Assembly (NCBI GenBank): GCA_902559035.1
Contig: CACEGG010000006.1
Span: forward strand, 1-64,000
Length of the DNA stretch: 64,000 bases
Reading direction: 5' to 3'
Source: an uncultured Bacteroidota bacterium
GTDB lineage: Bacteria; Bacteroidota; Bacteroidia; Flavobacteriales; Flavobacteriaceae
In this document: in pieces, positions 1-16,818 of the stretch
How the letters are laid out: every line of letters starts with the position of its first letter
Numbering within the stretch: the stretch's first letter is position 1
Program-made: the position numbers and the translations under genes
The notes under the pieces: model-generated
Database searches by the model: none
Seen by the model: only the letters and a program-made list of their open reading frames with translations
What the model was told of the DNA's origin: nothing

Positions 1-2724
1 AACACCTAATGTTGAATCAGGACAAGTATCAACAGAATTTAATATACCATCCCCATCACGATCGTCATCACAAACATCTCCAATACCGTCACCGTCAGAA
101 TCAGTAGGCCCACAATCAAGGTAATTTCCTAAAACAAGTGATGTTCCTGGTTCTAGATTAATTGTTGAATCTTGAGAAAATTCAATAAATTCATTATTTA
201 ATAAATTTTTCCATTTTCCATTAAATGGTAAATCAAGAATCAGTGATTTTTTTTCGACCTCAAAATTCGAAATCACATAAACATACTTGAGTGAATCACC
301 CGAAAGATTATCATTCCAAACTTCAATTGTTGGCAAAAGACTATTTTGATTGTTTGCTGAGAGTCGATATTCACCCTCAAATACCGGCTCATTTATTTTT
401 AATTCAATTAATTTTTTCCAATAATCATAAATTTCCTTTCTTTTAGTTAATGAATTCCAATTGGGATTCCATTGAGGTTGAGGTTTTGATGAAAGTTTAC
501 AATTGTCTGATCCATATGTACCATCCTCACATGTAAAAATTGAATTTTCCATTCCCATTTCAGAAAAATGCCATATCATTTTAGGCCCAGGAATTAAAAG
601 CAATGAAGCGCCTAATGATTTCATTCTTTCTAAGGCAACTTCAATTTCTTTTACATTGTGTTCTGAGTTTGATGAATTCCCGAAATTTAGATTTTTATAC
701 ATTAATCTTTCTTCATCATGACTTTCTGCATAAGTTATTAATCTTTTATCATCGAACCCTCTGGACTTATGGTCTGCTCGGGAAATATCTGAATTATCAG
801 AGTAACCCATAGTCAATTGATTATACATTGAGGTCATTTTACCCCAAATCATTATTCCTTTACCTTCTTCAATTCTATAATTTGCCCATTCTTTTTCTTC
901 TTCATCAGTTCCCAGGTGTTCAAATATTACATAATGATCTGGATCTAATGACCATGAATAATCAGCATAAAGTTTTAAAAGGTCTACCCTGTCTTGTTGA
1001 AAATTATTTGTACAATCATAATCGTTTTCATTACAATTCTGAGTAAATCCTTTTGTTAAATCCCAACGAAATCCATCAATTTTGTATTCTTCAATCCAAT
1101 GTTTCACAACCCTTTTTGTATAATCTTGTGTATAGGCACTTTGATGATTAAAATCATAACCAACAGAATATGTGTGTTTAGGTGATTGATTTAGATACGG
1201 GTTTTCTGAGGAGGGGTCTCCCCAGCCATTGTTATCAGGATCATTCATCCATAACTTTACAATAGGACTTCTACCAAAAACATGATTTAATGCTATATCT
1301 AAAATAACAGCAATGCCATTCTCATGACATAAATCAATGAATTCTTTCAGTTTATTTTTAGTTCCATAAAACTTGTCCAAAGAAAGATGATATGAGGTAT
1401 TATATCCCCAACTTTCATTTCCCTCAAATTCCATCACAGGCATTAGTTCAATTGCATTAATATTTAAATTTTTAAAGTAATCTATTCTATCAATTAAATT
1501 TTGAAATGTTCTTTCATTATCAAAATCTCTGATAAGTAATTCATAAATAATTAAATCTTCTTTTTTTGGTTTATTAAACTCTGGATTACTCCAAGTATAA
1601 TCATTTAACCATAAGTTTTCAATTAGGGTAAACTCACCCTCTTGATTTTCTGGAAGATTTGGTAGATCAGTATAAGAAGACGTTGAAATTTCTAAATCAT
1701 CATACTTTGATAATATTACATTTGAAAAAGGATCTGCAACCTTAACAAAAGTTGGAGAATCAGAAACTGGAGATTTTGAAAAAACTTCATACTGATACCA
1801 ATAATCAGATCCTGTAATTAAACCATTTATTTCAATCCAAAATTTATTATTATTTGGATTAATCTTCATTAAAGAATTATCATCTCTTTTGTAATCATTG
1901 AAATTTCCAAGAACATAAACGAAGTCTTTATTTGGAGCCGTTAATTGTAAATAAATATTTTGGTTATCATAGTTAATACCATCATCCAAACTTATTGGGG
2001 GCTCTTCAGTAATTATTTGAGGCTCAAGTATAATATCAAAATTTAAATTTATAAAACTTGAACTATCATTTGTGTCCTCACATAGTAACGTTAAAGTTGT
2101 TGATTCATTAATTTTAATACCATCTGCTTGAGATTCTGGACCTACAATAAGTTTTGTAAAATTTTTGGAATCCAATAATTGATAAATTATTTCATCATCT
2201 TTCTTTAAATAATAATTCATCTCAACTGATGAAGAAGTAGAAATCAATACAGAACTATCATTATCTAAAATAACAGGGTTGGTCTTAGGACTATTAATAG
2301 TAATTTCAAACCTTCCTACTTCAAAAAAATGATCAGGTGTTTTTTTATCACCAGTAGCATTTTTGGCTTTTGCTAAAACACCAATTTTCCCGATTCCCTC
2401 ATATTGAAATAATTCAGTAGGTATAAATTCAATTGAAAATGTACCATCAGAATTTTTTGTCATTTTCATTGACTCATTAGAGTTATCCCAATCTCCATTG
2501 CAATCACATGATTTAGGGTTTGCATCATTAGAATCATAAAACCATGTCCATAAATAAACATCATCTGTTGACCATTTGGATGTATCAATACCTGAAATAC
2601 TAATTTTTATATTTTCAGAATCATTAAATGGATTTGGATCTACAGACCAAGAGACATTGTCTTGAACTTGTGAGGACAAAAAATTAAAACTTATTAATAA
2701 TATTAAAAAAAAATATTTTTTCAT
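1..2724 (-). CDS. Secreted GH13 alpha-amylase-family protein with TSP3 repeats (C-terminus beyond window)
   Basis: An open frame of 908 codons runs from an ATG at 2724 to the left edge, so the 3' end is missing. The protein starts with a cleavable signal peptide, followed by about 250 residues of Ig-like/E-set sequence, a starch-synthase-like N-terminal domain (about 280-390) and a GH13 barrel. Catalytic residues are visible: nucleophile Asp555 in GFRWDLTKG, acid/base Glu602 in VIFEHLG and Asp670 in ESHDEE; region I reads DIALNH. The last visible residues (about 868-908) are calcium-binding thrombospondin type 3 repeats of the form DSDGDGIGDVCDDD. In this phylum such repeats usually lead into a type IX secretion sorting domain, so cell-surface or extracellular action is inferred. 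It is the last visible gene of the susC operon, 13 bases after the preceding stop codon. Its likely role is endo-cleavage of alpha-glucan; the exact specificity is unknown. Confidence 0.9.
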   Translation of the reverse strand, partial: MKKYFFLILLISFNFLSSQVQDNVSWSVDPNPFNDSENIKISISGIDTSKWSTDDVYLWTWFYDSNDANPKSCDCNGDWDNSNESMKMTKNSDGTFSIEFIPTELFQYEGIGKIGVLAKAKNATGDKKTPDHFFEVGRFEITINSPKTNPVILDNDSSVLISTSSSVEMNYYLKKDDEIIYQLLDSKNFTKLIVGPESQADGIKINESTTLTLLCEDTNDSSSFINLNFDIILEPQIITEEPPISLDDGINYDNQNIYLQLTAPNKDFVYVLGNFNDYKRDDNSLMKINPNNNKFWIEINGLITGSDYWYQYEVFSKSPVSDSPTFVKVADPFSNVILSKYDDLEISTSSYTDLPNLPENQEGEFTLIENLWLNDYTWSNPEFNKPKKEDLIIYELLIRDFDNERTFQNLIDRIDYFKNLNINAIELMPVMEFEGNESWGYNTSYHLSLDKFYGTKNKLKEFIDLCHENGIAVILDIALNHVFGRSPIVKLWMNDPDNNGWGDPSSENPYLNQSPKHTYSVGYDFNHQSAYTQDYTKRVVKHWIEEYKIDGFRWDLTKGFTQNCNENDYDCTNNFQQDRVDLLKLYADYSWSLDPDHYVIFEHLGTDEEEKEWANYRIEEGKGIMIWGKMTSMYNQLTMGYSDNSDISRADHKSRGFDDKRLITYAESHDEERLMYKNLNFGNSSNSEHNVKEIEVALERMKSLGASLLLIPGPKMIWHFSEMGMENSIFTCEDGTYGSDNCKLSSKPQPQWNPNWNSLTKRKEIYDYWKKLIELKINEPVFEGEYRLSANNQNSLLPTIEVWNDNLSGDSLKYVYVISNFEVEKKSLILDLPFNGKWKNLLNNEFIEFSQDSTINLEPGTSLVLGNYLDCGPTDSDGDGIGDVCDDDRDGDGILNSVDTCPDSTLGV

Positions 2725-2737: not shown

Positions 2738-4624
2738 TTATTCGATTTCAATAATTAAAGCGGATTTTTTTTCTAAAACAATATCGTTGGAAATCGAAAT
2801 TCTTTTTTTATTTAAAACATCATATCCAAATTCTTTATCCAAAATAAGTTCTTCAAACCTGGAAGTATTTAATTTTTTTGAAGAATCATTTCGATTAAAT
2901 ATTACCCATACCAATTTATCATCCAAAATTCTAAAAAAAGAATAAATTTCATCCTTTGGGGCAAACTGAACAAGTTTACCATTGTGGATAACTTCATTAT
3001 GTTTTCTCCAATTTAAAATTTCTTTAAAGAACAACTGTGTTTGTCGTTCTTTAAATGAAAGTCCATCACCTGTAAATGCATTTTTTGAATGATCGGGCCA
3101 TCCACCAGGAAATTCAGTTCTTATCAGACCATGATCTCCAGGATTTTCATCACTATTCATAAGAATCTCCGTACCATAATAAAATTGTGGAATTCCCCTC
3201 ATAGTACTATAATAAACAATACCCATTTTAAATAAATCTAAATCATTATTTACTTGAGTGTAAAATCTTGCCATATCGTGATTGTCAGGGAATATCAATA
3301 AATTATTAGGATTTGGATATAAAAAATCACTTGCTAAAGTTCTGTATGGCTTTATAAATCCTTTTCCCCAATCAAAATCATCCGTAAGAGCCTCTGAAAA
3401 TGAAATTTGAAGAGGAAAATCCATCAATGTTGGCAAATACGAAACATAACCATCATGATTGACCTTATCTTTTTGCCAATAAGAAATAACAATAGGACTA
3501 TCGGACCACTCCTCTCCAACGATATTGAAATTAGGATATTCATCCATCACTGAAAATGTCCAATCTGACATGAAATCTTTATCCGAGTAAGGGTATGTAT
3601 CAACCCTAATACCAGAAAGTCCTGCATACTCAATCCACCACAAAGTATTTTGAATTAAATATTTTGATATTTTTTTATTTTTTTGATTTAAATCCGGCAT
3701 AGTTTCTACAAACCAACCATCAGCATGTTCTCTTTTATCAATTTCAGAAGCATGAATATCTTGAACCGTTTCTCTTCTATGGCTTGTTTGTTTAAAACCT
3801 GATTGATTATTAAACCAGTCCTCCATCGGAGGGTCCTTAAAAAACCAATGCTCAGAACCACAATGATTAGGTATTAAATCCATAACCAGTTTTATTCCCT
3901 TTTTCTTTGATTTTAAACTCAGTTCTTTAAATAATTCATTAGTTCCAAACCTTGGATCAACCTTATAATAATCAGTTGTTGAATATCCATGATAAGAAGA
4001 TTTTTTCATATTATTCTCTGTTACAGGATTCAACCATACAGTTGTAAAACCTAAGTCTTTTATATAATCTAAATGATTAATAATCCCTTGAATATCTCCA
4101 CCATGAAGTCCTCTATTATTATCTCTATTTGGTCTTTCATACATGTATTCTACATCATCGTTAGAAAGATCACCGTTTGCAAATCTATCAGGAGTGATCA
4201 AATACATTACATCCGAATTATTAAAACCTTCAACTTTTGAAGCATTCTCTTTTCTGTCCAGTAATGAAAATTCATATCTGTCAACTATAATATTATTTTC
4301 AAGAAAATTTATTTCAATATTTTCTGGTTTTGCATTGTTATCAATTGAAATATTAATAAACAAATAGTTTTCATTTTTAACTCTTTCAGTAGAAATTAAC
4401 TTAACATTTGAACTGTTAATCACAGGATCATAATTAGAGATGTTTTTTCCGTAAATAAGAAGTTGTAAATCCTTTGTTTTCATGTCAATCCACCAATTTG
4501 GAGGCTCAACTCTTTCAATTTTATTAAATAAATTAACATCTACGTTAGTTATATCCAACTTATTTTCACTGTTACAGGACATAACAAGAAAAATAAACAA
4601 TACTAAAGTCAAGATATTTTTCAT
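2738..4624 (-). CDS. Lipoprotein GH13 alpha-amylase, cyclomaltodextrinase/neopullulanase type
   Basis: This 628-residue protein should hydrolyse alpha-1,4-linked malto-oligosaccharides or cyclodextrins, probably anchored in the outer membrane facing the periplasm. The start at 4624 is chosen because it opens a clear lipoprotein signal (MKNILTLVLFIFLVMSC) one base after the upstream stop; a longer frame to 4708 would bury that signal. Residues about 30-130 resemble the N-terminal beta domain of Bacteroidota cyclomaltodextrinases. The barrel follows with region I DLIPNH, nucleophile Asp342 in GIRVDTYP, acid Glu371 in VGEEW and Asp450 in PDNHD, so all three catalytic acids are present. The family includes SusA of Bacteroides, which acts in the periplasm on imported oligosaccharides. 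It is transcribed with the serine hydrolase upstream and the large GH13 downstream. Whether it prefers cyclic or linear substrates cannot be read from sequence. Confidence 0.92.
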   Translation of the reverse strand: MKNILTLVLFIFLVMSCNSENKLDITNVDVNLFNKIERVEPPNWWIDMKTKDLQLLIYGKNISNYDPVINSSNVKLISTERVKNENYLFINISIDNNAKPENIEINFLENNIIVDRYEFSLLDRKENASKVEGFNNSDVMYLITPDRFANGDLSNDDVEYMYERPNRDNNRGLHGGDIQGIINHLDYIKDLGFTTVWLNPVTENNMKKSSYHGYSTTDYYKVDPRFGTNELFKELSLKSKKKGIKLVMDLIPNHCGSEHWFFKDPPMEDWFNNQSGFKQTSHRRETVQDIHASEIDKREHADGWFVETMPDLNQKNKKISKYLIQNTLWWIEYAGLSGIRVDTYPYSDKDFMSDWTFSVMDEYPNFNIVGEEWSDSPIVISYWQKDKVNHDGYVSYLPTLMDFPLQISFSEALTDDFDWGKGFIKPYRTLASDFLYPNPNNLLIFPDNHDMARFYTQVNNDLDLFKMGIVYYSTMRGIPQFYYGTEILMNSDENPGDHGLIRTEFPGGWPDHSKNAFTGDGLSFKERQTQLFFKEILNWRKHNEVIHNGKLVQFAPKDEIYSFFRILDDKLVWVIFNRNDSSKKLNTSRFEELILDKEFGYDVLNKKRISISNDIVLEKKSALIIEIE

Positions 4625-4625
4625 A

Positions 4626-5909
4626 TTACTCTTCATTTTTAAATATTTGTGTATAAACTTCACCTCTAATTTCATTATCTCTTCCATAACCAGCTTTTGG
4701 AGTTTCAAACATCTGAGTCATAATTAAACCAACGAAATCACGTTTTGGGTCAATCCAGAAATGAGTTCCTTCATATCCACCACCAGTCCATAATCCTTCG
4801 TCACCATATCCTTTTTCCTTATATAATTTACTTGTAATCCACAAGTTATATCCATTATAACCATAATCATTTTCCAATTGAGTGTGAGGTGAATAAATCT
4901 CTTTAACTGATGATTCGTTCAGAAAACGATGACCATTTAATTCACCATGATTTAAAAGCATTCTTAAAAAATCAGCATATCCGTCTGCTGTGCCAATCAT
5001 TCCTTCTCCTCCCATAAACAACTCATTTTCTATACCATAACCTGGAACATATGTTCCCATTATATCAAGCTCTCCATCATTTGCATATCTTATTGAAGAA
5101 TCTACCCCAGAAAATACGGGCAACAATTTTGTATCAGAGTTCTTATTATATTGTAGACCTTTTATATTCATTGGTTCAGTTATCCTATTTTTTACAAGAT
5201 TGTCTAAACTTTCACCAGATGCTCTTTCATTTACAAGTCCTAAAACTGTAGTATTAAGACCATAGAAATGTTTATTTCCAGGGTAATCAACCAATGGAAG
5301 TTCAGATAATTTCTGAATCAATTCATTTGAATTTTTGGAAGCTGCTAAATTTTTCGAATTTAGAATATTATCCAAACAATTAATCCCAGTTGTAGAATAA
5401 TAAAAACCTGCTTCATGATTAATTAATTGTAAAACGGTCATTTCAAAATTGTTTTCAACTAATTGGTAAGGACAAGGCTCATCATTTTCTAATACATCAA
5501 TACCTAGTCCTTCTCCATAACCTGATAACGGTTTCCCTTTTTTTGAAACAGCTACTTTTAAGTTAACAAATTCAGGAATGTATTTAGTTACTGGATCATC
5601 TAATTTTAAAATTCCGTCCTCTACTAAATCCATTGTTAATGAAATAGTAACTATTTTACTCATAGACCATATTCTAAACCAAGTTTTTTCATTGATTTCA
5701 TGATCAGGAACTAAAGTATTGTTCTTGTTACTATATTGATAAATAGAATTACCATCATTATCCTCTAATCTTACAAGAAGAAGAGCTTGGGATCCATTAT
5801 CAATATATTTATCAACAATGGAATCTAATTTATTAGAATCATGAATTAGAGTTATACTTTTATCACAGGAACAAAAAATAATTAATATTAAAATCAGAAA
5901 TTTTTTCAT
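4626..5909 (-). CDS. Lipoprotein serine hydrolase, beta-lactamase/family VIII esterase fold
   Basis: The protein has 427 residues and starts with a lipoprotein signal ending at Cys15 (IIFCSC). The catalytic SxxK motif is Ser82-Met-Ser-Lys85, followed by the helix typical of the PF00144 fold. A YGLNTTVLG stretch matches the tyrosine motif of family VIII esterases and LovD-like transesterases better than the YxN of true class C beta-lactamases. A late GGYEGTHFWIDP segment supplies the third active-site strand. It is therefore more likely an esterase, transesterase or peptidase than an antibiotic-resistance enzyme. It lies 5 bases after the GH43 gene and 1 base before the next GH13 start, so it is co-transcribed with glycan enzymes. 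A role in removing ester substituents from the glycan is an inference from this position only. Confidence 0.85.
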   Translation of the reverse strand: MKKFLILILIIFCSCDKSITLIHDSNKLDSIVDKYIDNGSQALLLVRLEDNDGNSIYQYSNKNNTLVPDHEINEKTWFRIWSMSKIVTISLTMDLVEDGILKLDDPVTKYIPEFVNLKVAVSKKGKPLSGYGEGLGIDVLENDEPCPYQLVENNFEMTVLQLINHEAGFYYSTTGINCLDNILNSKNLAASKNSNELIQKLSELPLVDYPGNKHFYGLNTTVLGLVNERASGESLDNLVKNRITEPMNIKGLQYNKNSDTKLLPVFSGVDSSIRYANDGELDIMGTYVPGYGIENELFMGGEGMIGTADGYADFLRMLLNHGELNGHRFLNESSVKEIYSPHTQLENDYGYNGYNLWITSKLYKEKGYGDEGLWTGGGYEGTHFWIDPKRDFVGLIMTQMFETPKAGYGRDNEIRGEVYTQIFKNEE

Positions 5910-5914
5910 AAGTT

Positions 5915-7609
5915 TTATTTAATAGTGTTTTTTACCCATTCAAATTCAGCATATTCTTTTGTTTTATAACCGTTACTAGAAGCATATAGACCTAAGTTTG
6001 TTCCTATATATCCTTTGCATAAAACTAAATTAGCATCGGTTTCTGTAAACACTACAAAAGAATTACCATCATCGAGAGAATAATAATAAATATACTTATT
6101 GTCTTTTGACAAAATTTTTAAAATTATATTCTCATTATATTTTAAAGGAATTGATTTAATAATATCAAGTTTTTGATCTCTTGGTTTAACACTTAAATTC
6201 AATAGTGTTTTATTATTATGTTTTTTAACTGTAAAATTTATATAATTATCATCTTGAGAAAAAATACTCAAACCAGCCTCAGAAAAATTCTTTTTAGGTT
6301 TAAAATTCATACTTGATGAGTATTCAAACTCTGTTTCCTTTTGTCTAAAACCCATCAAATTATATTGACTTCTAAGTTCAAAAGATTCAGGACTTAAGTT
6401 TAGTTTCAAGGTTTTGTTTTTAGAATTTAGTATATATGTGTTTTCTCTTGGTACTCTTCTAAAATTCCATTGTAAATCAAGTTTAGAGGAAGTGAAATCA
6501 TCATAAAAAGAATAATTTATATTTTGTTTCTTTTCAAGAAATGGAATTGAAGTATTTCTTTCAACTTTTCCAGTGTTTGGTGCAACTACAGGCCATTTAA
6601 TTATTACAGGCTCCCATCTACCCTTTTCAACTTCAACCCAATTATCCCAAGCTTCTTCCCAAACAACAGGCATTAAATGAGTTTCTCTACCCATATTACT
6701 TGTTGAATCCATTTCATTTCTAATTCCTAGAGAAACCATATACCATCTCTTATCTTTTAACTGAACTAAATCAGCGTGACCAGTACTATGCACCCAATTA
6801 TTGTTTGATAAATGTCTAGATGTTAATATTGGGTTTTTGGGATTTGAGTCGTATGGTCCCTCAATATTTTTACTAGAAGCTATCATAACTGCATGATTAT
6901 AGGACGTACCACCCTCAGCAACCATCAGATAATATCTTCCATATTGTTTATAAATATGAGGTCCTTCTACACAACAGCCTCCGCAAGCACCCCTCCAGAT
7001 TGAATGTCTTTGGCCTTTTAATTTCCAATTATTCAAATCTAATTCTTGAATCCAAATCTCTCCTATTCCATTTTTATTAGGATTTCCGGTATCGTGAGTG
7101 CCCACAAACCATACTTTACCATTATCATCAAAAAAAATATCTGGATCAATTCCCGGTGCACCTTCAATGACATAAGGGTCTGACCATGGGCCTGCAGGAT
7201 TTTTAGCTGTTAAAATGAAATTCACCATTTCTGTAGGTTTAGATTTGTCTACAGGTGAATAAACATTTGTTGTAACAATGTAAAACAAACCATCATGATA
7301 TCTTATTGAAGGAGCGTGGATACCTCCCTGTTGCTGTACATCGTATAAATTAACTTTTCCTGTACCTTGACTAGGTCTATCAATTCCATACCCTATTAAC
7401 TCCCAATTAACTAAATCTTTACTATGATGAATTGGAAGAGCTGGAAAATATTCAAAAGAAGAGTTGACTATATAAAAATCATTTTCAACCCTTACTATCG
7501 AAGGATCAGGATATCCTCCATTTATTATAGGGTTTATAAAAGTGTCTTGAGAATAGACATTGAAAATCAAAAACAAAAAAAATACTTGGCTAGATATAAA
7601 ATTCTTCAT
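5915..7609 (-). CDS. Secreted GH43 glycosidase (xylosidase/arabinofuranosidase type) with C-terminal beta-sandwich
   Basis: A 564-residue protein with a signal peptide cleaved near Gln21 (NVYSQ). The five-bladed GH43 fold shows its three catalytic acids: Asp35 in GGYPDPS (base), Asp155 in PGIDPD (pKa modulator) and Glu215 in VEGPH (acid). The C-terminal third (about 370-560) begins FYDDFTSSKLD and resembles the GH43-associated concanavalin-like C2 domain found in beta-xylosidases and arabinofuranosidases. Just before the acid are three cysteines, C209-G-G-C212-C213, in a segment where family members usually carry Gly/Trp/Pro; they may form a disulfide or a metal site. GH43 enzymes normally act on pentosyl residues, so its presence in an otherwise alpha-glucan operon is unusual. 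It sits 72 bases downstream of the susE-like gene, beyond a terminator-like hairpin. Confidence 0.9.
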   Translation of the reverse strand: MKNFISSQVFFLFLIFNVYSQDTFINPIINGGYPDPSIVRVENDFYIVNSSFEYFPALPIHHSKDLVNWELIGYGIDRPSQGTGKVNLYDVQQQGGIHAPSIRYHDGLFYIVTTNVYSPVDKSKPTEMVNFILTAKNPAGPWSDPYVIEGAPGIDPDIFFDDNGKVWFVGTHDTGNPNKNGIGEIWIQELDLNNWKLKGQRHSIWRGACGGCCVEGPHIYKQYGRYYLMVAEGGTSYNHAVMIASSKNIEGPYDSNPKNPILTSRHLSNNNWVHSTGHADLVQLKDKRWYMVSLGIRNEMDSTSNMGRETHLMPVVWEEAWDNWVEVEKGRWEPVIIKWPVVAPNTGKVERNTSIPFLEKKQNINYSFYDDFTSSKLDLQWNFRRVPRENTYILNSKNKTLKLNLSPESFELRSQYNLMGFRQKETEFEYSSSMNFKPKKNFSEAGLSIFSQDDNYINFTVKKHNNKTLLNLSVKPRDQKLDIIKSIPLKYNENIILKILSKDNKYIYYYSLDDGNSFVVFTETDANLVLCKGYIGTNLGLYASSNGYKTKEYAEFEWVKNTIK

Positions 7610-7625
7610 ATTTAAATTTCATTAA

Positions 7626-7662
7626 AAAAAAATGGACTACCAAAATGATAATCCATTTTTTT
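7626..7662 (-). terminator. Hairpin between susE-like and GH43 genes, possible partial terminator
   Basis: The arms AAAAAAATGGA (7626-7636) and TCCATTTTTTT (7652-7662) are perfect inverted complements around a 15-base loop, with an A/T run on both sides giving a U tail in the minus-strand transcript. It lies in the only sizeable gap of the left-going operon. Such a structure after susCDE would reduce expression of the downstream enzymes relative to the binding and transport proteins. The function is inferred from position and shape. Confidence 0.55.
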
Positions 7663-7681
7663 ATAAATCAAAAAACAAACT

Positions 7682-8812
7682 TTATTTCTTAGTTAAAGTA
7701 TATGTTCCGTTAACTGTGTCTAAAGTCATGTCATAAGTACCAGCTGAAACGGCAATATTAGCACCATTAGCTTCAGTTGTTCCGTCAGCACCATTGTCAC
7801 CTAAATTAACTCCCCAAGCATCATCTTGTCTAAACTTAATTTCTCCGTCTGTCAATACAACATCTTTTATAATATAAACACCATCATTACATGGATCCGG
7901 AACTAATTTAACGTCTTCAGCAGCTCCCCATCCATTTAATGTGGCACTACCAACAACACCCCAAACAGTTCCAGCAGGCGTTATTGTTATAGTGAAATTA
8001 ACAGCATCAAAGTCGATGACGTAATGACCAGCGGAAATAGCAATATTTGCTCCATTTTGCTCTAATGTTCCATCAGCTCCATTATCTCCATAATTTAGAC
8101 CCCATGCATTGTCCTCACGAATTTTGAATTCACCATCATAAAGAGTAGCAACAGCTCTAAACATTCCATCTTGCCCGTTACTTAAAAATGGAACATCATT
8201 TCCAGCAGCAAATCCTCTATTTGTTCCACCCCATCCGTTAACAGCACTTCCAACAAGTCCCCAATTACTTAAGGTAGCATCAGTACAAGCTCCTACATTT
8301 TCAAGAACCTCAATATTCATTGATGCAGTCTTTGACACAGTTGAAGACTGGTTAGCGCCTGAAGACGATGTACCAGCATATGCAGTTACTCTTGCATAAA
8401 CCATTCCCGTATTATTTGGAGATCCATCACTGAATGTAGTATTTGGATCATCATCCAATCCTAAAGTTTCAGCAAACTCCAACATTGAGCTTACTTTTAC
8501 ACCCAAATGATTGTTAGATGTATCACCTGAGCTCATATCAATAGTTGAAAAATCACTATTTATTGAAAATTCCACAACATAAGTTACTGTCGTTGGAGCA
8601 TCAAAATCAGGTGCATTCCATACTAGACGTTCTGAAATATTATTTGATGTTTGTGCAGAGATCTTATAAACATCTTGAAATTCATTTTGAAATTTAACCT
8701 CCTTCTGATTAATAGCAGTAAAGATTAAATAATCTTCTTTTTCACAAGAAGAGATATTTACAATTAAAAATGTAAATAATAATAGTTTACTAAATTTTAA
8801 TATAGTTTTCAT
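7682..8812 (-). CDS. SusE/SusF-like outer-membrane starch-binding lipoprotein
   Basis: A 376-residue lipoprotein (signal ending ISSCEKED) with an N-terminal SusE-type immunoglobulin-like domain (about 35-160) followed by two tandem copies of a SusE/F-type starch-binding module (about 183-277 and 283-376). The copies share the landmarks VGSA..NGWG, DGEFKIR/DGEIKFR, DDAWG, NYGDNGADGT and NGANIA.SAG. Family members bind alpha-glucans on the cell surface beside the SusCD transporter without any catalysis. The gene begins 2 bases after susD ends on the minus strand, so it is the third gene of the operon. The repeats remain alike in DNA as well as protein, implying duplication within the family. 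Call by domain pattern and position; ligand inferred from neighbours. Confidence 0.9.
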   Translation of the reverse strand: MKTILKFSKLLLFTFLIVNISSCEKEDYLIFTAINQKEVKFQNEFQDVYKISAQTSNNISERLVWNAPDFDAPTTVTYVVEFSINSDFSTIDMSSGDTSNNHLGVKVSSMLEFAETLGLDDDPNTTFSDGSPNNTGMVYARVTAYAGTSSSGANQSSTVSKTASMNIEVLENVGACTDATLSNWGLVGSAVNGWGGTNRGFAAGNDVPFLSNGQDGMFRAVATLYDGEFKIREDNAWGLNYGDNGADGTLEQNGANIAISAGHYVIDFDAVNFTITITPAGTVWGVVGSATLNGWGAAEDVKLVPDPCNDGVYIIKDVVLTDGEIKFRQDDAWGVNLGDNGADGTTEANGANIAVSAGTYDMTLDTVNGTYTLTKK

Positions 8813-8814: not shown

Positions 8815-10422
8815 TTAATAATTTGGATTTTGAGTTAAGTTAGAATTCACAAGAAGCACAGCTTCTGGAATAGGGAAAATTCTTCTATATTCATCAGAAG
8901 CTTTCCCTTGAGCAGCTCCTGCTTTGAAAGGCCACATATAATTAGACGTAACAAATTTATTATGTCTAATTAAATCAGATCTTCTCTGACCTTCCCAGTA
9001 TAATTCTCTTGATCTTTCATCTAAAACAAAATCAGATGTCAAATCAGAACTAGTTATTGTTGACGCACCTGCTCTGGACCTTAACTGATTAATAAGGTTT
9101 GCAGCAGTATCTAAGTTTGCACCACTTTTAGCAGCGGCTTCAGCGTAGTTTAAGTAAACTTCTGCTAATCTAATTATTGCTAAATCAGTGTCAACATGAT
9201 TTCCTGAGGAATCAGAACCCGCAGTACCATTAATATCAACGTTTCTAAATTTAGTAACACCATAGCCTTCTTTAAAAGGAGCGACTTTTGCCATTTCGTA
9301 ATTTTGGCCGTCTGTGTGGAACATTGCTCTAGAATCTGACCATGCAGTTGGATGACCATCACCATTTGTTGCTGTAACTGAATATTCAAACTTATCAACT
9401 AAAGCTTTGGTTGTTCTAAGTCCACCCCATCCACCATTAACTCCAAACATTGACGGATCCATTGAACCACCAATTGGTGCATGAACCATAAAAGTTCCAC
9501 CTCCCCAAGATTGGCTATTCAGACCATCAAATTGAACAACAAAAATAAACTCATTTTGAGCTCCATTTGTATTGTTATCCGCTAGAAATAATTCATCATA
9601 TGCAGAACCGTTACCATTTCCATCAGTTGTATTTAATGAATACGAACTAGAAATAACCTTTTCAGCATTAGCTATAACCTGAGAACTCATATCAGAACCA
9701 ATATAAACAGGTGCATTTAAATAAAGTCTAGAAAGTAGTGCCCAAGCAGCTACCTTATCAACCCTTCCATATTCGTTAGATCTTGAATCTGCAAGTAATG
9801 AAGAAAGTTCATTAAGTTCAGTTTCAATAAATGAGAAAATTTCTTGTCTATTGCTTTGTTGTGGAAGTTCAGATGTTAACTCAGTAACTAATGGAACATT
9901 TGCATACATATCAATTAACTGTAAATAGGCATATGCTCTCAAAAATCTTGCTTCTGCAACAAAATTTGCAGCCTCAGTGTTAGTAGACGCTAAATCAGCA
10001 GCATTTTCAATAAATGAATTTGAAAAAGACACTACTTGTGCTAATCTAAAATACATTCCTTGAGTCCAAGGATTATTTATATCCCATGACATTTCATGTA
10101 TATTAGGTAGTCCAGGATCTCCCCATCCTACAACTGCTTCATCCGTACTACAGACATTGAGTGTGTATAGAATACGTGTGTATTGAGAAAAACCTTCATC
10201 AATTAGACTAGGGTCAATATCAGGATTTCCATCAGGTCCAACTTGGCCTGTAATAGCTAAACTCGCATATATTTTGGCTAGTGCACCTTTTGCTGAGTCT
10301 GTATCTTTAAAAACATCAATTTCCGTAAATAAATCAGGATCAGTAGGAACCTGATCTAAATCAGCATGACACGAAACAAGTATCATTGATGATAAAGTGA
10401 ATAAATAAAATATTTTTTTCAT
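8815..10422 (-). CDS. SusD/RagB-family outer-membrane glycan-binding lipoprotein
   Basis: This 535-residue lipoprotein forms the lid of the TonB-dependent SusC pore and binds oligosaccharides at the cell surface. The chosen start at 10422 gives a clean lipoprotein leader ending LVSCHADLDQVP; an upstream in-frame ATG at 10449 would overlap the end of susC and hide the signal. SusD landmarks include the early LDQVPTDP segment, the helical TPR-like region with EARFLRAYAYLQLIDMY (about 194-210), and the C-terminal signature LAEVYLNYAEAAA plus ELYWEGQRRSDLIRHNKF. It begins 10 bases after susC. The aromatic-rich middle part, including WGGGTFMVHAP, may supply sugar-stacking residues, but I cannot assign them. 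Confidence 0.96.
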   Translation of the reverse strand: MKKIFYLFTLSSMILVSCHADLDQVPTDPDLFTEIDVFKDTDSAKGALAKIYASLAITGQVGPDGNPDIDPSLIDEGFSQYTRILYTLNVCSTDEAVVGWGDPGLPNIHEMSWDINNPWTQGMYFRLAQVVSFSNSFIENAADLASTNTEAANFVAEARFLRAYAYLQLIDMYANVPLVTELTSELPQQSNRQEIFSFIETELNELSSLLADSRSNEYGRVDKVAAWALLSRLYLNAPVYIGSDMSSQVIANAEKVISSSYSLNTTDGNGNGSAYDELFLADNNTNGAQNEFIFVVQFDGLNSQSWGGGTFMVHAPIGGSMDPSMFGVNGGWGGLRTTKALVDKFEYSVTATNGDGHPTAWSDSRAMFHTDGQNYEMAKVAPFKEGYGVTKFRNVDINGTAGSDSSGNHVDTDLAIIRLAEVYLNYAEAAAKSGANLDTAANLINQLRSRAGASTITSSDLTSDFVLDERSRELYWEGQRRSDLIRHNKFVTSNYMWPFKAGAAQGKASDEYRRIFPIPEAVLLVNSNLTQNPNY

Positions 10423-10432
10423 ATCAATAATT

Positions 10433-13336
10433 TTAAAAATTAATATCAAGACCTAAGGCTATTGCTCTTGATCTTGGGTAAAAGTTACTATCTAAACCAC
10501 CTGTTATTTCAGGATCAATTCCTTCATATTCAGTGATGGTTAGCAGATTATCTGCACTTATATATAATCTCATAGGATTATTGTCAATTACATTATCGAC
10601 TGTCCAGCCTAATGTAACGTTATCTAACTTAAAAAAAGAAGCATTTTGGATATGATGATCGCTTACTCCATTTTTGTCAGAAAAATATAAAAAACCAGTG
10701 TCCAAATATGACGTATGAACATTCGACAATCTTCCTAAATTCCATATTTGATTTTCAACTGAGGCTGCCATCATTCTGTTCGAACTGTAGTTTCCTAAAC
10801 TAGCTCTAGAAGCCATACTAAAATCGAAATTTTTATATGTAATAGATGCAGTAAGTCCCATTAAAACATCAGCGTAAGGATCTTTATAAAAATATCTATC
10901 GTCATTATTTATTCTTCCATCTCCATTTAAATCAGCATATGATCCCTCAATAGGTCTTCCCTTGTGATCATAAATTTGTTTATACACATAATATGAATAT
11001 GGCGATTTTCCAGTTTCATGTCTTTGTAAAAATGCTCCAAAGCCAATTCCACCAACATTTTGTTCATTATCAAGTCTTGTAACCTCATTGTCATTTATGG
11101 ATACGTTATAACTTAAATCAAATTTCAAATCATCAGATTCATAGACAGTAGAGTTTAATTGTAATTCAACACCTTTATTTTCCATATCACCAATATTAGC
11201 ATCTATTGTTGTGCCAAAGTTTGTAAATGGATCAATAACAGCGGTAGCAATTAAATCATTAGTCTTTTTAACATAGGCATTAAATGATCCATTTAACTTT
11301 AGATCAGAAAATGTAAAGTCTATACCAAGGTTTGTTGTTTGGCCAACTTCCCATCTTAAATTCTTATTAATTGGAGCAGGTCTATATGTTGAATAAAAAG
11401 AATTTCCAAACCCATATTTAGATTTTGAATCACTACTAACGTATCTAGTTAAGAAATTATAATCTCCAAGACCGTTAACATTTCCAACTTCACCAAATCC
11501 AACTCTTAATTTTAATTTATCAACTCCGTCATCGTAAAAGTTCCAAGCTAATGCAGCAGAAAAGAATTGACCCCATCTGTCATTTGAAGGTAACTTTGAT
11601 GATGCATCTGCTCTTAAAGTTGCAGTTAAAAAATATTTATCATTAAATGAGTAATTTAATCTTCCAAAGTAAGAAAGCAAAACGTTTTTTGATGTATCTA
11701 TGTAGGAATTCGTAGTTGATGAGCCTGAATTAACTGAACCATCTGAATTAAGATACTGAACTGATGCTGTACTTGAGTTGTCATACTCAAAACTTTGATA
11801 TGAATGACCAGCAGTTACAGAAAGATTAGAATCTCCAAAATCTGATGCATAATTTAAATAGGCATCAAATAACAAATTAGTAGTTTCATTTGAATAAACA
11901 TTGTTACTTCCATTAAAACCAGCTGCATCTGTTGGCATATTTTTATCTTGTGAACTGAATCCTTCGCCTTTAGAAAAATCATAACCAGCATTTACAGTTG
12001 CAATCAATCCATCAACAGGAAGATTATAATCTAATTTCACATTACTAATTATTCTATCGACAGTAGATTCATCATCACTCAAATTTAATAGTGCTAGTGG
12101 ATTAGTTGGAGATAAAGCCAATTTGTTTCCATTTGAATCTGTCCAATTATAATATCCTCCAAAAACATCAGGGTTTGGCCCATAAACTGGTTTTGTTGGA
12201 TCAAAAAATACAGCAGAACCAATCGCTCCTCTATTTGCAAAATCATTTTCACTTCTAACATATCTAGCATTTAAATTTAATCTTAAATCACCATCTAAAA
12301 AAGAGGGTGAAATGTTTAATGATCCCGTAATTCTGTTAAAATTGTCTCCCATTAGGATTCCATTTTGATCTGTAAATCCAATTGAAGCTCTTAGAGGCAT
12401 TCCAAGCACACCACCTGAAACTGAGAAACTATTATTTTGAGCTAAAGCAGTTTCATAAATTTCTCTTTGCCAGTCAGTATCATAAGATCCTAGTCTAGAG
12501 ATATAATCTGAGACACCTGTTGCCTGTACCGCATATTTGAATTGAGAGGCATTAAGAACATCAACGTAATCAGTTGGAGTAAACATTGAAGATCTTGAAC
12601 TAAAATTATATTTTAATTCACCTGTCTTTCCTTTTTTAGTTGTAATTAAAACAACTCCATTGGCAGCACGAGAACCATAAATAGCAGTTGCTGAAGCATC
12701 TTTTAAAATACTTATCGCAGCAATATCATTTGGGTTAATAACATTTAAACCGCTTCTTGCTCCTCCAACTCCACCAGCATCCAAAGGAACACCATCAACA
12801 ACATACAAAGGATTTGAATTTAAATTTAATGATCCAATACCTCTAATTAAGACATTTGAATCATCACCAGGTGCACCACTGTTAGAAACAATTGAAACAC
12901 CTGCTACTTTTCCTCTAATTAATTGTTGAGGAGAAACTACTGAACCTTTTGCAAAGTCCTTTTCAGTAACTAAATCTACAGTTCCTGTCAAGTCTTTTTT
13001 CCTAACAGTTCCATATCCAATTACAACAACCTCGTCCAATTCTGAATCAGACTCAGCCATAACAACATCTAAATTTGTTCCATTAACAGTTAATTCAACG
13101 GTTTGATAACCGATGTATGAAAAAACTAAAATTTGACCATTATCAGCGTTTATCTGAAAATTTCCGTCAAAATCACTTGAAACACCAACATTAGTTCCTT
13201 TAATAATAACATTTACGCCTGGTAAAGCATTACCAGAATTGTCAGTTATTAAACCCGAAACACTTTGTTGTGAAAAAATTCCAATTGATAGGAAAAGCAA
13301 AAAAAGAGTTTGAATTTGTTTTAAAAATTTAATCAT
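10433..13336 (-). CDS. SusC/RagA-family TonB-dependent oligosaccharide transporter
   Basis: A 967-residue outer-membrane receptor that imports oligosaccharides with energy from TonB. The start at 13336 opens a signal peptide (LFLLFLSIGIFSQ); an upstream in-frame ATG at 13375 would precede it with charged residues. The mature protein begins with a carboxypeptidase-regulatory-like domain (VSGLITDNSGNALPGVNV, about 25-100), then a TonB box/plug region with VVIGYGTVRKKDLTG and the SusC-typical NVLIRGIGS...NPLYVVDGVP segment, and a 22-stranded barrel ending in aromatic Phe. It is the first gene of the left-going operon and has two LacI-type palindromes upstream. The substrate, alpha-glucan oligosaccharides, is inferred from the neighbouring GH13 and GH65 enzymes. 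Confidence 0.96.
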   Translation of the reverse strand: MIKFLKQIQTLFLLFLSIGIFSQQSVSGLITDNSGNALPGVNVIIKGTNVGVSSDFDGNFQINADNGQILVFSYIGYQTVELTVNGTNLDVVMAESDSELDEVVVIGYGTVRKKDLTGTVDLVTEKDFAKGSVVSPQQLIRGKVAGVSIVSNSGAPGDDSNVLIRGIGSLNLNSNPLYVVDGVPLDAGGVGGARSGLNVINPNDIAAISILKDASATAIYGSRAANGVVLITTKKGKTGELKYNFSSRSSMFTPTDYVDVLNASQFKYAVQATGVSDYISRLGSYDTDWQREIYETALAQNNSFSVSGGVLGMPLRASIGFTDQNGILMGDNFNRITGSLNISPSFLDGDLRLNLNARYVRSENDFANRGAIGSAVFFDPTKPVYGPNPDVFGGYYNWTDSNGNKLALSPTNPLALLNLSDDESTVDRIISNVKLDYNLPVDGLIATVNAGYDFSKGEGFSSQDKNMPTDAAGFNGSNNVYSNETTNLLFDAYLNYASDFGDSNLSVTAGHSYQSFEYDNSSTASVQYLNSDGSVNSGSSTTNSYIDTSKNVLLSYFGRLNYSFNDKYFLTATLRADASSKLPSNDRWGQFFSAALAWNFYDDGVDKLKLRVGFGEVGNVNGLGDYNFLTRYVSSDSKSKYGFGNSFYSTYRPAPINKNLRWEVGQTTNLGIDFTFSDLKLNGSFNAYVKKTNDLIATAVIDPFTNFGTTIDANIGDMENKGVELQLNSTVYESDDLKFDLSYNVSINDNEVTRLDNEQNVGGIGFGAFLQRHETGKSPYSYYVYKQIYDHKGRPIEGSYADLNGDGRINNDDRYFYKDPYADVLMGLTASITYKNFDFSMASRASLGNYSSNRMMAASVENQIWNLGRLSNVHTSYLDTGFLYFSDKNGVSDHHIQNASFFKLDNVTLGWTVDNVIDNNPMRLYISADNLLTITEYEGIDPEITGGLDSNFYPRSRAIALGLDINF

Positions 13337-13360
13337 ATTTTTGATTTTTGTTTGGTTAAA

Positions 13361-13375
13361 AAATCTACTTCTCAA
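13361..13375. repeat. 15-base repeat AAATCTACTTCTCAA, copy 1 (susC leader)
   Basis: An exact 15-base match to 14685-14699, in the same genomic orientation but the opposite orientation relative to its gene. It lies 25 bases upstream of the susC start and about 57 bases downstream of the nearest operator. Its role is unknown; a second regulator site or an RNA element are both possible. Confidence 0.5.
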
Positions 13376-13431: not shown

Positions 13432-13445
13432 CTATAACGTTATAG
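13432..13445. promoter_or_regulatory. LacI-type operator 1 (susC control region)
   Basis: Perfect 14-base palindrome CTATAACGTTATAG with the central CG step typical of LacI/GalR-family operators. It lies between the divergent susC and lacI-type genes. The same sequence recurs upstream of the MFS transporter gene at 14605. Confidence 0.8.
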
Positions 13446-13453
13446 CTATCCAA

Positions 13454-13467
13454 CTACAACGTTATAG
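13454..13467. promoter_or_regulatory. LacI-type operator 2 (susC control region)
   Basis: CTACAACGTTATAG differs from the perfect palindrome by one base and is centred 22 bases (two helical turns) from operator 1. That phasing would allow two dimers to bind on the same face of the DNA. It is a probable second site for the adjacent regulator. Confidence 0.7.
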
Positions 13468-13553: not shown

Positions 13554-14588
13554 ATGATAAGACGTATTACTTTGAAAGAAATTGCAAATGAATTGAATGT
13601 ATCAATTTCAACAGTTTCAAAATCTTTGAAAGATAGTCACGAAATCGGGATTGAAACTCGTGAAAAAATTAAAGCTTTTGCAAAAGCACATAATTATAGA
13701 CCAAACAACATAGCTTTAAGTTTAAAAAACAGAAAAACAAAAACCATTGGGGTAATAATTCCCGAAATTGTTCATCATTTCTTTTCAATTGTAATCAATA
13801 GTATTGAAAAGTTTTCTACTGAAAGTGGTTACAATGTAATAATTGCTGTTTCTAATGAATCTTTTGAAAAAGAGGTTTTAAATATGGAAACTCTTGCTAA
13901 CGGCCATATTGATGGTATAATAATGTCAATTGCTAAAGAAACACTAAAAAAACAAGATTTTCATCACATCAAAGAAACCATTGATTTAGGAATTCCAGTT
14001 GTTCTCTTTGATCGAGTTATTTCTGAAATTAAATGTGACAAAGTAATTGTGAATGATAAACAAGCTGCAAAAGAAGCAACTCAAGTTTTAATAGATGACA
14101 ATAGAGAAAATATTCTTCTTTTAACATCTGAGGACTATGTTAGTGTAGGGAATCTTAGAACTGAAGGATATTTAGAAGCTCTTAAGGATAATGACATAGA
14201 ACCAGACAGTAATTTAATTATCAAAGTAAAAGATAAAAAAGGCAGTCAATTAGAAATGTCTTATTTAGAAGATGAACTTGAAAAAGTTATAAAATCCAAA
14301 AAAGTTGATGCTATATTAGGTGTAAATGAAATATATGCAGGTTCTGCCCTAAAAGTTCTCAAAAAAAATAATATATCTGTTCCAAAGGAAATTTCTATTA
14401 TATCTTTTACAGATGGTGTAATATCAAGATACTCCTCTCCTTCTCTGTCGACTATTAGTCAGCATGGCGAAATTATGGGAGAAAGATCTGCCGAGTTACT
14501 CATAAATAAATTAACTGGAAAAACCAGTAGTAACGAGTTCAAAACTGAAATAATTAATTGTTCATTAATCAAAAGAGAATCCTCCTAA
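13554..14588 (+). CDS. LacI/GalR-family transcriptional regulator
   Basis: A 344-residue protein of normal family length. Residues 4-27 form the LacI helix-turn-helix (ITLKEIANELNVSISTVSKS), followed by the hinge helix region around NNIALSLK, which inserts into the central CG of the operator. Residues 62-340 form the periplasmic-binding-protein-like effector domain (TIGVIIPEIVHHFFSIV at its start). It lies between the two glycan operons, divergent from susC and upstream of the MFS gene. Three CTATAACGTTATAG-like palindromes in the flanking gaps are its probable targets. Homologues in flavobacterial starch loci respond to maltose or related sugars; whether it represses or activates here cannot be told from sequence. 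Confidence 0.93.
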   Translation: MIRRITLKEIANELNVSISTVSKSLKDSHEIGIETREKIKAFAKAHNYRPNNIALSLKNRKTKTIGVIIPEIVHHFFSIVINSIEKFSTESGYNVIIAVSNESFEKEVLNMETLANGHIDGIIMSIAKETLKKQDFHHIKETIDLGIPVVLFDRVISEIKCDKVIVNDKQAAKEATQVLIDDNRENILLLTSEDYVSVGNLRTEGYLEALKDNDIEPDSNLIIKVKDKKGSQLEMSYLEDELEKVIKSKKVDAILGVNEIYAGSALKVLKKNNISVPKEISIISFTDGVISRYSSPSLSTISQHGEIMGERSAELLINKLTGKTSSNEFKTEIINCSLIKRESS

Positions 14589-14604: not shown

Positions 14605-14618
14605 CTATAACGTTATAG
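14605..14618. promoter_or_regulatory. LacI-type operator 3 (upstream of MFS operon)
   Basis: The perfect palindrome CTATAACGTTATAG extends to 16 bases (ACTATAACGTTATAGT, 14604-14619). It lies 16 bases after the lacI stop and about 190 bases before the MFS start. It sits about 90 bases upstream of the candidate -7 element at 14708, which suggests action at a distance or activation rather than simple steric blocking. Confidence 0.78.
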
Positions 14619-14804: not shown

Positions 14805-16166
14805 ATGAAAAAGAAATTAGGTTTTTGGGAAATATGGAATATGAGTTTTGGATTTTTAGGAATCCAATTTGGATTTGCACTGCAAGGTGGGTTTATGTCA
14901 AGAATATTTCAAACTCTCGGTGCAGACGAGGCAAGTATTCCATTGTTGTGGATAGCTGCTCCATTAACTGGTCTTATCGTTCAACCCATAATAGGCTATC
15001 TAAGTGATAATACCTGGCATTCAAGATTGGGAAGAAGAAAACCTTATTTTTTAATAGGAGCTATTTTAAGTTCAATTGCTCTATTTTTTGTTCCTTATTC
15101 ATCAACACTATGGATGGCTGCTGGTTTTTTATGGATATTGGACGCATCTATCAATATTAGTATGGAACCTTTTCGAGCATTAGTTGCAGATAAGCTTCCA
15201 GATTCTCAGAGATCTTATGGTTTTGTAACTCAAACACTAATTATAGGTATAGGAACTTGGATAGCAAGTAATCTACCATATTTTGTAAGTAGTCTTGGTG
15301 TAAGTGATGTTTCAGAACCTGGTGTTATTCCAAATTCAGTTAAAGTAGCTTTCGCAATTGGAGCTGGAGTATTTTTCTTTTCAATTTTATATACAATTCT
15401 TACAACTGAGGAATATCCTCCAAAAAATTTAAATGAGTTTAGAAAAAAACAAAATAAAGATATAATCTCAATGTTAAGAGAGTTTTCTGAGCATTATATA
15501 AAAATGCCACTTATAATGAAAAAATTAGGCTTAATTCAGTTTTTTAGTTGGTTTGCTTTTTTTACAATGTGGAGTATGGCTAATCCGGCAATCACTGAAC
15601 ATATTTTCAATTCTCCTGTTCCAATATTAGCTGAATACGACTTAAACAATGAATTAGATCTTGAAAAATATAATTCAGAGAATTTAAGTTTTCAAAAAGC
15701 ATCAAATTTAACAGGCTCGTACATGGGTACATATGGTTTATCTTCAATGCTTTTTGCTTTAATCTTAACAATTTATACATCTAAAAGAAAAATCAATAGG
15801 AAAATGATACACCTATTCTCTTTAATATTGGGTGGAATAGGTTTTTTATCAATGTATTACATCACAAATCATACATATTTAATAATATCATTTAGTTTAA
15901 TTGGAATTTCATGGGGAAGTATTTTATCTATGCCATATGCAATGTTATCAAGTTCTGTTGATGAGGACAGTATGGGTACAAGCATGGGGATTTTCAATAT
16001 GTTTATAGTTATTCCTCAAATCATTGCCGCTATTGGAGGAATAAATCTGTTAACATCTTTAATTGGTGATAAACCAATTTTTTCGATGATAATTGCAGGT
16101 TTAGCCCTAATTATCGCAGGACTTTTCAATCTACTTATAAATGATAAAAAAACGATAAGTAACTAA
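14805..16166 (+). CDS. MFS sugar transporter (maltose/sucrose carrier type, SLC45-like)
   Basis: A 453-residue inner-membrane protein with about 12 hydrophobic segments. It begins FWEIWNMSFGFLGIQFGFAL and carries the loop 2-3 signature GYLSDNTWHSRLGRRKPY, as in the glycoside-pentoside/SLC45-type carriers that import disaccharides with a cation. A hydrophilic insert at about residues 265-300 replaces the usual central loop. It is the first gene of the plus-strand operon and ends 1 base before beta-phosphoglucomutase, which together with GH65 points to maltose as substrate. The operator at 14605 indicates shared control with susC. The substrate is an inference from neighbours. Confidence 0.9.
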   Translation: MKKKLGFWEIWNMSFGFLGIQFGFALQGGFMSRIFQTLGADEASIPLLWIAAPLTGLIVQPIIGYLSDNTWHSRLGRRKPYFLIGAILSSIALFFVPYSSTLWMAAGFLWILDASINISMEPFRALVADKLPDSQRSYGFVTQTLIIGIGTWIASNLPYFVSSLGVSDVSEPGVIPNSVKVAFAIGAGVFFFSILYTILTTEEYPPKNLNEFRKKQNKDIISMLREFSEHYIKMPLIMKKLGLIQFFSWFAFFTMWSMANPAITEHIFNSPVPILAEYDLNNELDLEKYNSENLSFQKASNLTGSYMGTYGLSSMLFALILTIYTSKRKINRKMIHLFSLILGGIGFLSMYYITNHTYLIISFSLIGISWGSILSMPYAMLSSSVDEDSMGTSMGIFNMFIVIPQIIAAIGGINLLTSLIGDKPIFSMIIAGLALIIAGLFNLLINDKKTISN

Positions 16167-16167: not shown

Positions 16168-16818
16168 ATGAGAAAATTTCCCACTTTTATATTTGATCTA
16201 GATGGTGTTATTACTAACACCGAAAAGTACCATTATCAATCATGGAGAATAATTTGCAATGATTTGGGATATAATCTAACTAAAGAACAGAATGAAGAAC
16301 TTAAAGGAGTTAGTAGAAACAAATGTCTTTTGAAAATATTACAATGGACAAATCTCAATATAAGTCAAAGTAAGTTTGAAGCATTACTTAATAAAAAAAA
16401 TAAGATTTATTTGGAAAAAATATCAAAACTAAACTCCTCAAACATAATTGATGGAGTACAAGATTTTATAAAAAATGCAAAAGAACAAAATCATTCAGTT
16501 GCATTATATTCCTCAAGCAAGAATGCTAAATTCATTTTAAGTAAACTTAATCTTCATGGGTTTTTTGATGCAATAGTTGACGGTAATAGTGTTAGAGCCT
16601 CTAAACCTGATCCTGAAGGCTTTATTATAGCCTCAAAGCTAACAAATTCAGATCCCAGTAATTGCGTTGTATTTGAAGATTCTGAAGCTGGTATAATAGC
16701 AGGGAACAAAATTAACATGACAACTGTGGGAATTGGAAATTCTATAAAATTAAATGTGGCAAGTAAAGTTTTTAAAAATTTTCAAGAAATAAAATTTAAA
16801 GATTTTCAAATATGTTAG
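16168..16818 (+). CDS. pgmB: Beta-phosphoglucomutase (HAD superfamily)
   Basis: A 216-residue cytoplasmic HAD enzyme expected to convert beta-glucose 1-phosphate to glucose 6-phosphate. The nucleophile and acid/base are Asp10 and Asp12 in FDLDGVITNT, followed by the cap-domain segment EKYHYQSW and GVSRNKCL, then motif II around LYSSSKNAK, motif III KPDPEGF and motif IV FEDSEAGI. The length is normal for the family. Its stop overlaps the start of the GH65 gene, so the two are translationally coupled. GH65 maltose phosphorylase releases exactly its substrate, which makes the assignment strong. Confidence 0.94.
   Translation: MRKFPTFIFDLDGVITNTEKYHYQSWRIICNDLGYNLTKEQNEELKGVSRNKCLLKILQWTNLNISQSKFEALLNKKNKIYLEKISKLNSSNIIDGVQDFIKNAKEQNHSVALYSSSKNAKFILSKLNLHGFFDAIVDGNSVRASKPDPEGFIIASKLTNSDPSNCVVFEDSEAGIIAGNKINMTTVGIGNSIKLNVASKVFKNFQEIKFKDFQIC

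Follow-up and report, generated by a model that had tools for sequence, protein, structure and literature searches.

A flavobacterial alpha-glucan utilization locus with an apparently inserted GH43-hydrolase pair and a likely link to xylose

The closest described relatives of the locus analyzed here are of two kinds. The simple polysaccharide utilization locus (PUL) for alpha-1,4-glucan, as in Gramella forsetii, combines GH13 and GH65 enzymes (cited in PMC6794258), whereas the complex alpha-glucan PULs, to which Krueger et al. 2019 (PMC6794258) devote a section, contain several GH13 genes, often GH65 and often GH43_12, with a substrate given there as "unclear"; the hosts named include Cyclobacteriaceae, NS5, Formosa and the genus MAG-121220-bin8. 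We examined a 64,000-base window of DNA from an uncultured member of the Flavobacteriaceae (positions 1-64000 of contig C6, which has 84,995 bases; the source genome is 1.58 Mb and 88.6% complete), in which a GH43 gene and a serine hydrolase gene lie side by side within an alpha-glucan PUL. This PUL resembles the complex ones in its several GH13 genes, GH65, GH43 and alpha-glucan-type SusC/D, and such PULs with GH43_12 have been reported in the genus of the window genome, so that the presence of GH43 in this PUL is not new. What is new is the link to xylose, the insertion history and a substitution in the active site; the section of Krueger et al. on complex PULs mentions neither the hydrolase nor xylose genes and says nothing of the history. 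The locus is of a published kind, here with a lineage-specific cassette, the product of which is likely xylose.

The initial annotation had named SusC, SusD, SusE, three GH13 enzymes, GH65, beta-phosphoglucomutase (bPGM), an MFS carrier, GH43 and a serine hydrolase, all of which were confirmed in identity and position. The genes susCDE with GH13 and GH65 constitute the flavobacterial alpha-glucan PUL gene set, and the further combination of several GH13 genes, GH65 and GH43 with alpha-glucan-type SusC/D is that of a complex alpha-glucan PUL. The susC side of the locus is organized as follows.

1..2724, minus strand: GH13a, with an alpha-amylase domain, a signal peptide and a TSP_3 repeat, running off the contig start (PF00128, 4.8e-21; PF02412, 3.7e-09)
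2738..4624, minus strand: GH13b, cyclomaltodextrinase-like lipoprotein (PF00128, PF09087, PF10438)
4626..5909, minus strand: serine hydrolase, family VIII esterase-like, with a lipoprotein-like start recognized by eye (PF00144, 7.5e-36)
5915..7609, minus strand: GH43 with a GH43_C2 beta-sandwich and a signal peptide recognized by eye (PF04616, 1.3e-80; GH43_C2, 1.7e-34)
7610..7681, minus strand: gap between SusE and GH43 with a stem-loop (minimum free energy -18.8, z -4.58)
7682..8812, minus strand: SusE (PF14292, 2.5e-07; PF16411, 9.8e-07)
8815..10449, minus strand: SusD (PF07980; starch SusD model NF033071, 389.8 bits, under the cut-off of 725)
10433..13375, minus strand: SusC (TIGR04056, 719 bits, over the cut-off)

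The spacing of one to five bases proposed in the initial annotation holds for GH43 and the hydrolase (5 bp) and for the hydrolase and GH13b (1 bp, given a GH13b start at the ATG at 4624 rather than at an upstream TTG that would extend the gene to 4708), and fails for SusE and GH43, which are separated by 72 bp with the stem-loop; GH13b and GH13a are 13 bp apart.

The pair recurs together with its surroundings in the genus set of 22 genomes, all of which are incomplete. A GH43 match was found in nine of these, namely the window genome, seven genomes with 83-87% identity and G211, with 57% identity in a different context. SusD with at least 86% identity is present in seven of the 22, the window genome included, and an eighth PUL carrier, G209, is represented by a short contig (L005) with SusE, GH43 and the hydrolase. 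In all eight PUL-bearing genomes (the window genome G000, G199, G202, G205, G207, G209, G212 and G215), the hydrolase follows GH43; SusE precedes GH43 in seven, and the contig of the eighth (L007, from G202) begins within GH43. The association of GH43 and a serine hydrolase inside an alpha-glucan locus, to which the initial annotation drew attention, is thus more than chance. Outside the genus, this arrangement was seen in G178 only, where SusC, SusD, SusE and GH43 are followed by the beginning of the hydrolase, in which the contig ends. The G178 GH43 gene appears as two overlapping frames, but the break contains unknown bases and, accordingly, the gene was not called broken.

In the family set of 199 genomes, relatives of SusD (E <= 1e-60) were detected in 93, the window genome included. 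The surroundings were taken from 71 of the other 92, that is, from G178 and 70 more loci representing 70 other genera, with 21 left out; some stretches were shortened by contig ends, and L214, not being a SusD locus, was excluded from the comparison counts. A GH13 or GH65 partner is present in 60 of the 70 loci, and the usual order in the family is GH65-bPGM-MFS-LacI divergent from SusC-SusD-SusE-GH13a. The window locus shares SusCDE, GH13, LacI, MFS, bPGM and GH65, in the same order, with the simple flavobacterial PULs and differs from them in what has been added. None of the 70 stretches fetched contains GH43, either by BLAST or by the GH43 profile, which regained the known GH43s in nine control loci, and none contains xylose isomerase (XylA) or xylulokinase (XylB) by BLAST. 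The sole partial exceptions, one locus each, are a 29% serine hydrolase beyond GH13b in L197 and a 38% SSS sodium symporter in L231. Galactan-type loci, too, come within reach of the SusD search: in L237, L241 and L243, SusD relatives with about 40% identity are accompanied by SusE and then a GH53-like gene.

In three genomes of the family (G055, G067 and G009), an alpha-glucan PUL without GH43 coexists with a GH43 orthologue at a separate place. In a GH43 tree of 26 chosen rows (L007 being partial, L011 a fragment and G178 represented by the first 330 residues minus unknown residues), the eight genus sequences group with that of G178 in a single clade (100/98), and G211 joins next (95/95). 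Because GH43 is absent from all 70 comparison loci, the GH43-hydrolase pair looks like a derived insertion into the alpha-glucan PUL, and a single insertion before the split from G178 would be the simplest history. The synteny comparison that the initial annotation had proposed thus found the pair to be kept in the genus and in G178, against no GH43 in the related SusD loci.

The GH43 protein, the only one with PF04616 found in the window genome by profile search at its 88.6% completeness, has the PF04616 fold and intact catalytic residues Asp35, Asp155 and Glu215, and so belongs to the GH43 family. The nearest solved relative is the beta-xylosidase 5z5d of Geobacillus thermoleovorans IT-08 (6.9e-90), which a review places in GH43_12; judging from this relative, the window protein most resembles a GH43_12 beta-xylosidase. 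The two proteins share a two-domain build, and comparison with the -1 and +1 subsite residues of 5z5d, as given in PMC5919610, matched Asp14, Asp121, Glu177, His238, Arg269, Phe31 and Thr197 by eye in the alignment, with Phe73 the only unmatched residue of the -1 subsite. Phe73, which lines both subsites, corresponds to His98 here and in seven of the eight non-PUL orthologues compared, and Glu198 corresponds to Ser236; both differences also occur in most of the non-PUL orthologues. In contrast, Tyr175 of the +1 subsite is replaced by Cys213, which lies two positions ahead of the catalytic acid Glu215. Cys occupies this position in all nine PUL-type rows (one partial, one a fragment), whereas among the 17 other homologues Trp is found in 14, His in two and Tyr in one. 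Because Cys213 replaces these residues, a changed aglycone in the PUL-type GH43 can be fairly inferred.

GH43 orthologues with about 48-58% identity occur in other gene contexts. The G192 orthologue is accompanied by GH10 and a weakly matched alpha/beta-hydrolase and that of G055 by GH3 and GH53, with XylA, XylB and the SSS symporter on the same contig at distances of about 10 and 15 kb, respectively. In G067, the orthologue adjoins a PF00756 esterase, and GH10, a sulfatase, another GH43, XylB and XylA are found together on a different contig. G025, G009 and G434 possess the GH43 orthologue, with no XylA found and no xylan enzymes among the scanned neighbours. In G211, a member of the same genus, the 57% GH43 lies in a separate PUL (L128, 83-16396) with two sulfatases, a PF00144 protein, two BD-FAE esterases and a SASA esterase, the target of which is likely a sulfated, acylated pentose glycan.

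The link to xylose comes from genes that extend the PUL in one sister genome, G215, where a same-strand run leads from GH13a (ending at 12803) through an SSS symporter (12864-14516) and XylB (14521-15996) to XylA (ending at 17332); XylA scores over the model cut-off, and the G215 XylB, for which xylulokinase is the best model, scores under it. The GH13a homologue in G215 (L003) ends with a T9SS sorting domain (TIGR04183). The window genome encodes all three xylose proteins on contig C18, XylA scoring over the cut-off and XylB being named by similarity, in the order SSS-XylB-XylA as in G215, reaching the C18 edge at the SSS gene, and C6 begins inside GH13a. The edges are the same in G212, the G199 contig begins inside SSS, and the G202 contig begins with a T9SS-like tail matching the end of GH13a, followed by SSS. 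The edges in these four genomes fit the G215 layout, the continuity itself being observed in G215 only. Assembly breaks recur in sister genomes both within the TSP_3/T9SS region of GH13a and where SSS begins, as if the GH13a end were hard to assemble.

Across the genus, XylA was detected in 16 of the 22 genomes, including six of the eight PUL-bearing ones (the misses are G205 and G209), and the order SSS-XylB-XylA is found in five of these six, the exception being G207. Five PUL-free genomes of the genus that were inspected have XylB first, with SSS either after it (two) or not seen (three). L-arabinose isomerase (AraA) was found in none of the 22 incomplete genomes by a search whose control matched in five of 14 known genomes, and arabinose was accordingly set back as the leading product of GH43. 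No GH10, the xylanase by which a marine (sulfated) xylan PUL would be recognized, was found in the eight PUL-bearing genomes or in G211 and G178, most of these genomes being incomplete and other xylanase families not having been searched. The choice between arabinosyl and xylosyl substrates, left unmade in the initial annotation, is tilted by genome content, with XylA and XylB present in the window genome and AraA found in none of the 22, so GH43 probably releases xylose. The interpretation given in the initial annotation is upheld in part: its broader suggestion, that GH43 removes a pentose within an alpha-glucan locus, gains support from XylA, XylB and SSS in the genome, the operon run-on in G215, Cys213 and the lack of detected GH10 in the eight genomes. 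An attached xylose pathway in such PULs was not met in the literature searched, which excluded most subscription papers. The combination of GH13, GH65, GH43 and xylose isomerase retrieved, judging by abstracts, only work on straw consortia, that of SusD, GH13, GH65 and xylulokinase retrieved none, and none of the papers listed for terminal xylose with 4-linked glucose was relevant, judging by titles and the opening lines of abstracts.

The second member of the pair resembles family VIII carboxylesterases. It contains SMSK at residue 82, YGLN at 216 and WTGGGYEGT at 374, matching the SxxK, YxN/YxS and GG-rich motifs that we take to be the family VIII esterase signature. Its best solved matches are the carboxylesterases 4ivi (1.6e-34) and Est-Y29, with which it shares the SxxK serine motif, the Tyr motif and the GG-rich third motif, and from which it differs in its lipoprotein-like start. 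Esterase-type genes also adjoin GH43 orthologues in L044, L048 and L128. On the strength of the similarity, the motifs and these neighbours, the hydrolase may remove esters from the substrate of this PUL, a role we assign tentatively, at slightly less than even confidence. Alternatively, the hydrolase, considered by itself, could be a cell-wall or general PF00144 enzyme, related to DD-peptidases and beta-lactamases, that is carried along in the operon. Hydrolase matches in 162 of the 199 family genomes and weaker matches to PBP4B, AmpH, DD-carboxypeptidases and class C beta-lactamases speak for this alternative. We consider it rather unlikely, given the carboxylesterase matches, the esterase-type neighbours and the company the close form keeps with this GH43: among the matches listed, the G178 fragment, with 48% identity over 129 residues, stands alone as a close one outside the genus, the others longer than 150 residues showing 35% identity or less and short pieces up to 46%.

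The divergent half of the locus contains the remaining alpha-glucan genes and the proposed regulatory sites.

13432..13445, strandless: palindrome CTATAACGTTATAG, proposed LacI operator (motif scan)
13454..13467, strandless: second copy of the palindrome, one mismatch (motif scan)
13554..14588, plus strand: LacI-family regulator (PF00356, PF00532)
14605..14618, strandless: third copy of the palindrome, upstream of the MFS operon (motif scan)
14805..16166, plus strand: MFS sugar carrier (PF07690; best NCBIfam model GPH_sucrose, under the cut-off)
16168..16818, plus strand: bPGM (TIGR01990, 208 bits, over the cut-off)
16812..19097, plus strand: GH65 (NF010380, 1017 bits, over the cut-off)
19105..20445, plus strand: GH13c, third alpha-amylase-like enzyme (NF041321, 159.6 bits, under the cut-off)

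The three palindrome sites, two in the susC-lacI gap and one ahead of the MFS operon, are all that occur in the 64 kb at up to two mismatches, against 0.19 expected. Exact copies are present in the same gap in G207 (L006/L122) and G205 (L008/L124), and none was found in the other 210 of 214 loci, many of which do not reach into that gap; upstream of MFS, G205 has a one-mismatch copy, and G207 and G178 have none. The LacI protein presumably binds these sites. A stem-loop after SusE is common in flavobacterial alpha-glucan-type PULs, with z <= -3 in 41 of 47 scored gaps (58 found; L180-L254) against single-base shuffles, 60 each, a weaker control than the shuffles used for the window, L119 and L122; it may set the expression of SusCDE apart from that of the enzyme genes. 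Farther along the window, a lipoprotein at 23739-25157 resembles alpha-L-fucosidase, with no NCBIfam match at 1e-20, and presumably belongs to GH29. A protein of 1214 amino acids at 30253-33897, following an ABC ATPase, appears from its sequence to be a fusion of a permease and an M1-type aminopeptidase.

Taken together, these observations lead us to favour, by a modest degree, the explanation that a flavobacterial alpha-1,4-glucan PUL (SusCDE, GH13, LacI, MFS, bPGM, GH65) gained a xylose-releasing cassette. Under this scenario, SusCDE would import malto-oligosaccharide-like fragments carrying, or travelling with, beta-linked xylose; the lipoprotein hydrolase would clip acyl esters and the periplasmic GH43 would cut terminal xylose, to be taken up by the SSS symporter for XylA and XylB; GH13, MFS, GH65 and bPGM would handle the glucose part; and one LacI repressor would work through the palindrome sites. 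Several observations weigh against this scenario. The xylose genes of the window genome are on a different contig from the PUL; in G207, GH13a is followed by a different gene, and XylB-XylA occupy a separate contig with no SSS in front; no palindrome copy was found immediately ahead of SSS in L119 or L127, so that the attached xylose genes would rely on read-through or other control; and the stem-loop parts SusE from GH43 (z of -4.58 in the window, -5.53 in L119 and -5.70 in L122). The next-nearest solved GH43 relatives are the arabinofuranosidases BoGH43B and BoGH43A, and a characterized GH43_12 enzyme is most active on an arabinofuranoside (PMC8631079); another cleaves beta-1,3-xylosyl links (PMC7142710). 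Finally, G178 has the pair, yet no XylA was found there and the XylB query retrieved glycerol kinase only, which makes xylose use via the isomerase an unlikely explanation of the pair in that genome.

The last of these points leaves room for the side-sugar removal envisaged in the initial annotation: GH43 would strip off a pentose, L-arabinofuranose or a different one, and so open the way for the GH13 enzymes, the sugar not being the prize and the xylose genes having joined later for other reasons. The Cys213 that G178 shares and the arabinofuranosidases BoGH43A/B as the next solved relatives are compatible with such an access role, which nevertheless seems to us quite improbable in view of the xylose isomerase in the genome and after the PUL in G215 and the lack of detected AraA throughout the genus. 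The initial annotation further suggested a substituted or mixed alpha-glucan; the pentose enzyme in an alpha-glucan setting agrees with this, but the pentose need not be on the same molecule, a separate xylan being no less likely to supply it as xylo-oligosaccharides. As one form of the favoured explanation, a streamlined genome could have packed a xylo-oligosaccharide cassette into the alpha-glucan operon, with xylose not on the glucan and both foods coming from the same algal debris; this we regard as possible though clearly short of probable. The co-linearity of xylose and alpha-glucan genes in G215 and the separate places of the two parts in G055, G067 and G009 agree with it, as do the high expression of alpha-glucan SusC/D on glycogen or xylan in one Muricauda (PMC11093988) and the xylo-oligosaccharide cluster of Bifidobacterium adolescentis, in which GH43_12, LacI, two esterases, XylA and XylB recall the present gene set and which differs from it in its ABC transporter and GH43_11, no alpha-glucan genes being named there (PMC7142710). 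The absence of detected GH10 (within the limits of that search), the single SusC/D pair of the locus, which is of the alpha-glucan type, and G178, with the pair and no XylA/XylB found, argue against it. The PUL could also target an undescribed marine alpha-glucan with acylated beta-xylose side groups, GH43 having turned from a xylan context to de-xylosylation with a +1 subsite that accepts glucose (aromatic residue to Cys213) and the xylose pathway having been added afterwards; this we deem unlikely. Cyanobacterial lipopolysaccharide as a joint source of glucose and xylose was considered and kept as a loose lead only, the relevant part of PMC4515613 giving alpha-1,4-linked glucose for marine Synechococcus and xylose for other cyanobacteria.

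Among the major foods of ocean flavobacteria are alpha-glucans, and the 2019 study (PMC6794258) left the substrate of the complex, GH43-bearing PULs unclear. Given a xylose pathway within the operon, an insertion that apparently happened once and an active-site change peculiar to the lineage, a few enzyme assays could answer the question of this substrate. The gene set suggests a food source containing glucose chains and xylose, used by one lineage of ocean bacteria with small genomes; a xylose-bearing alpha-glucan, if that is indeed the substrate, would be an overlooked component of marine organic carbon.

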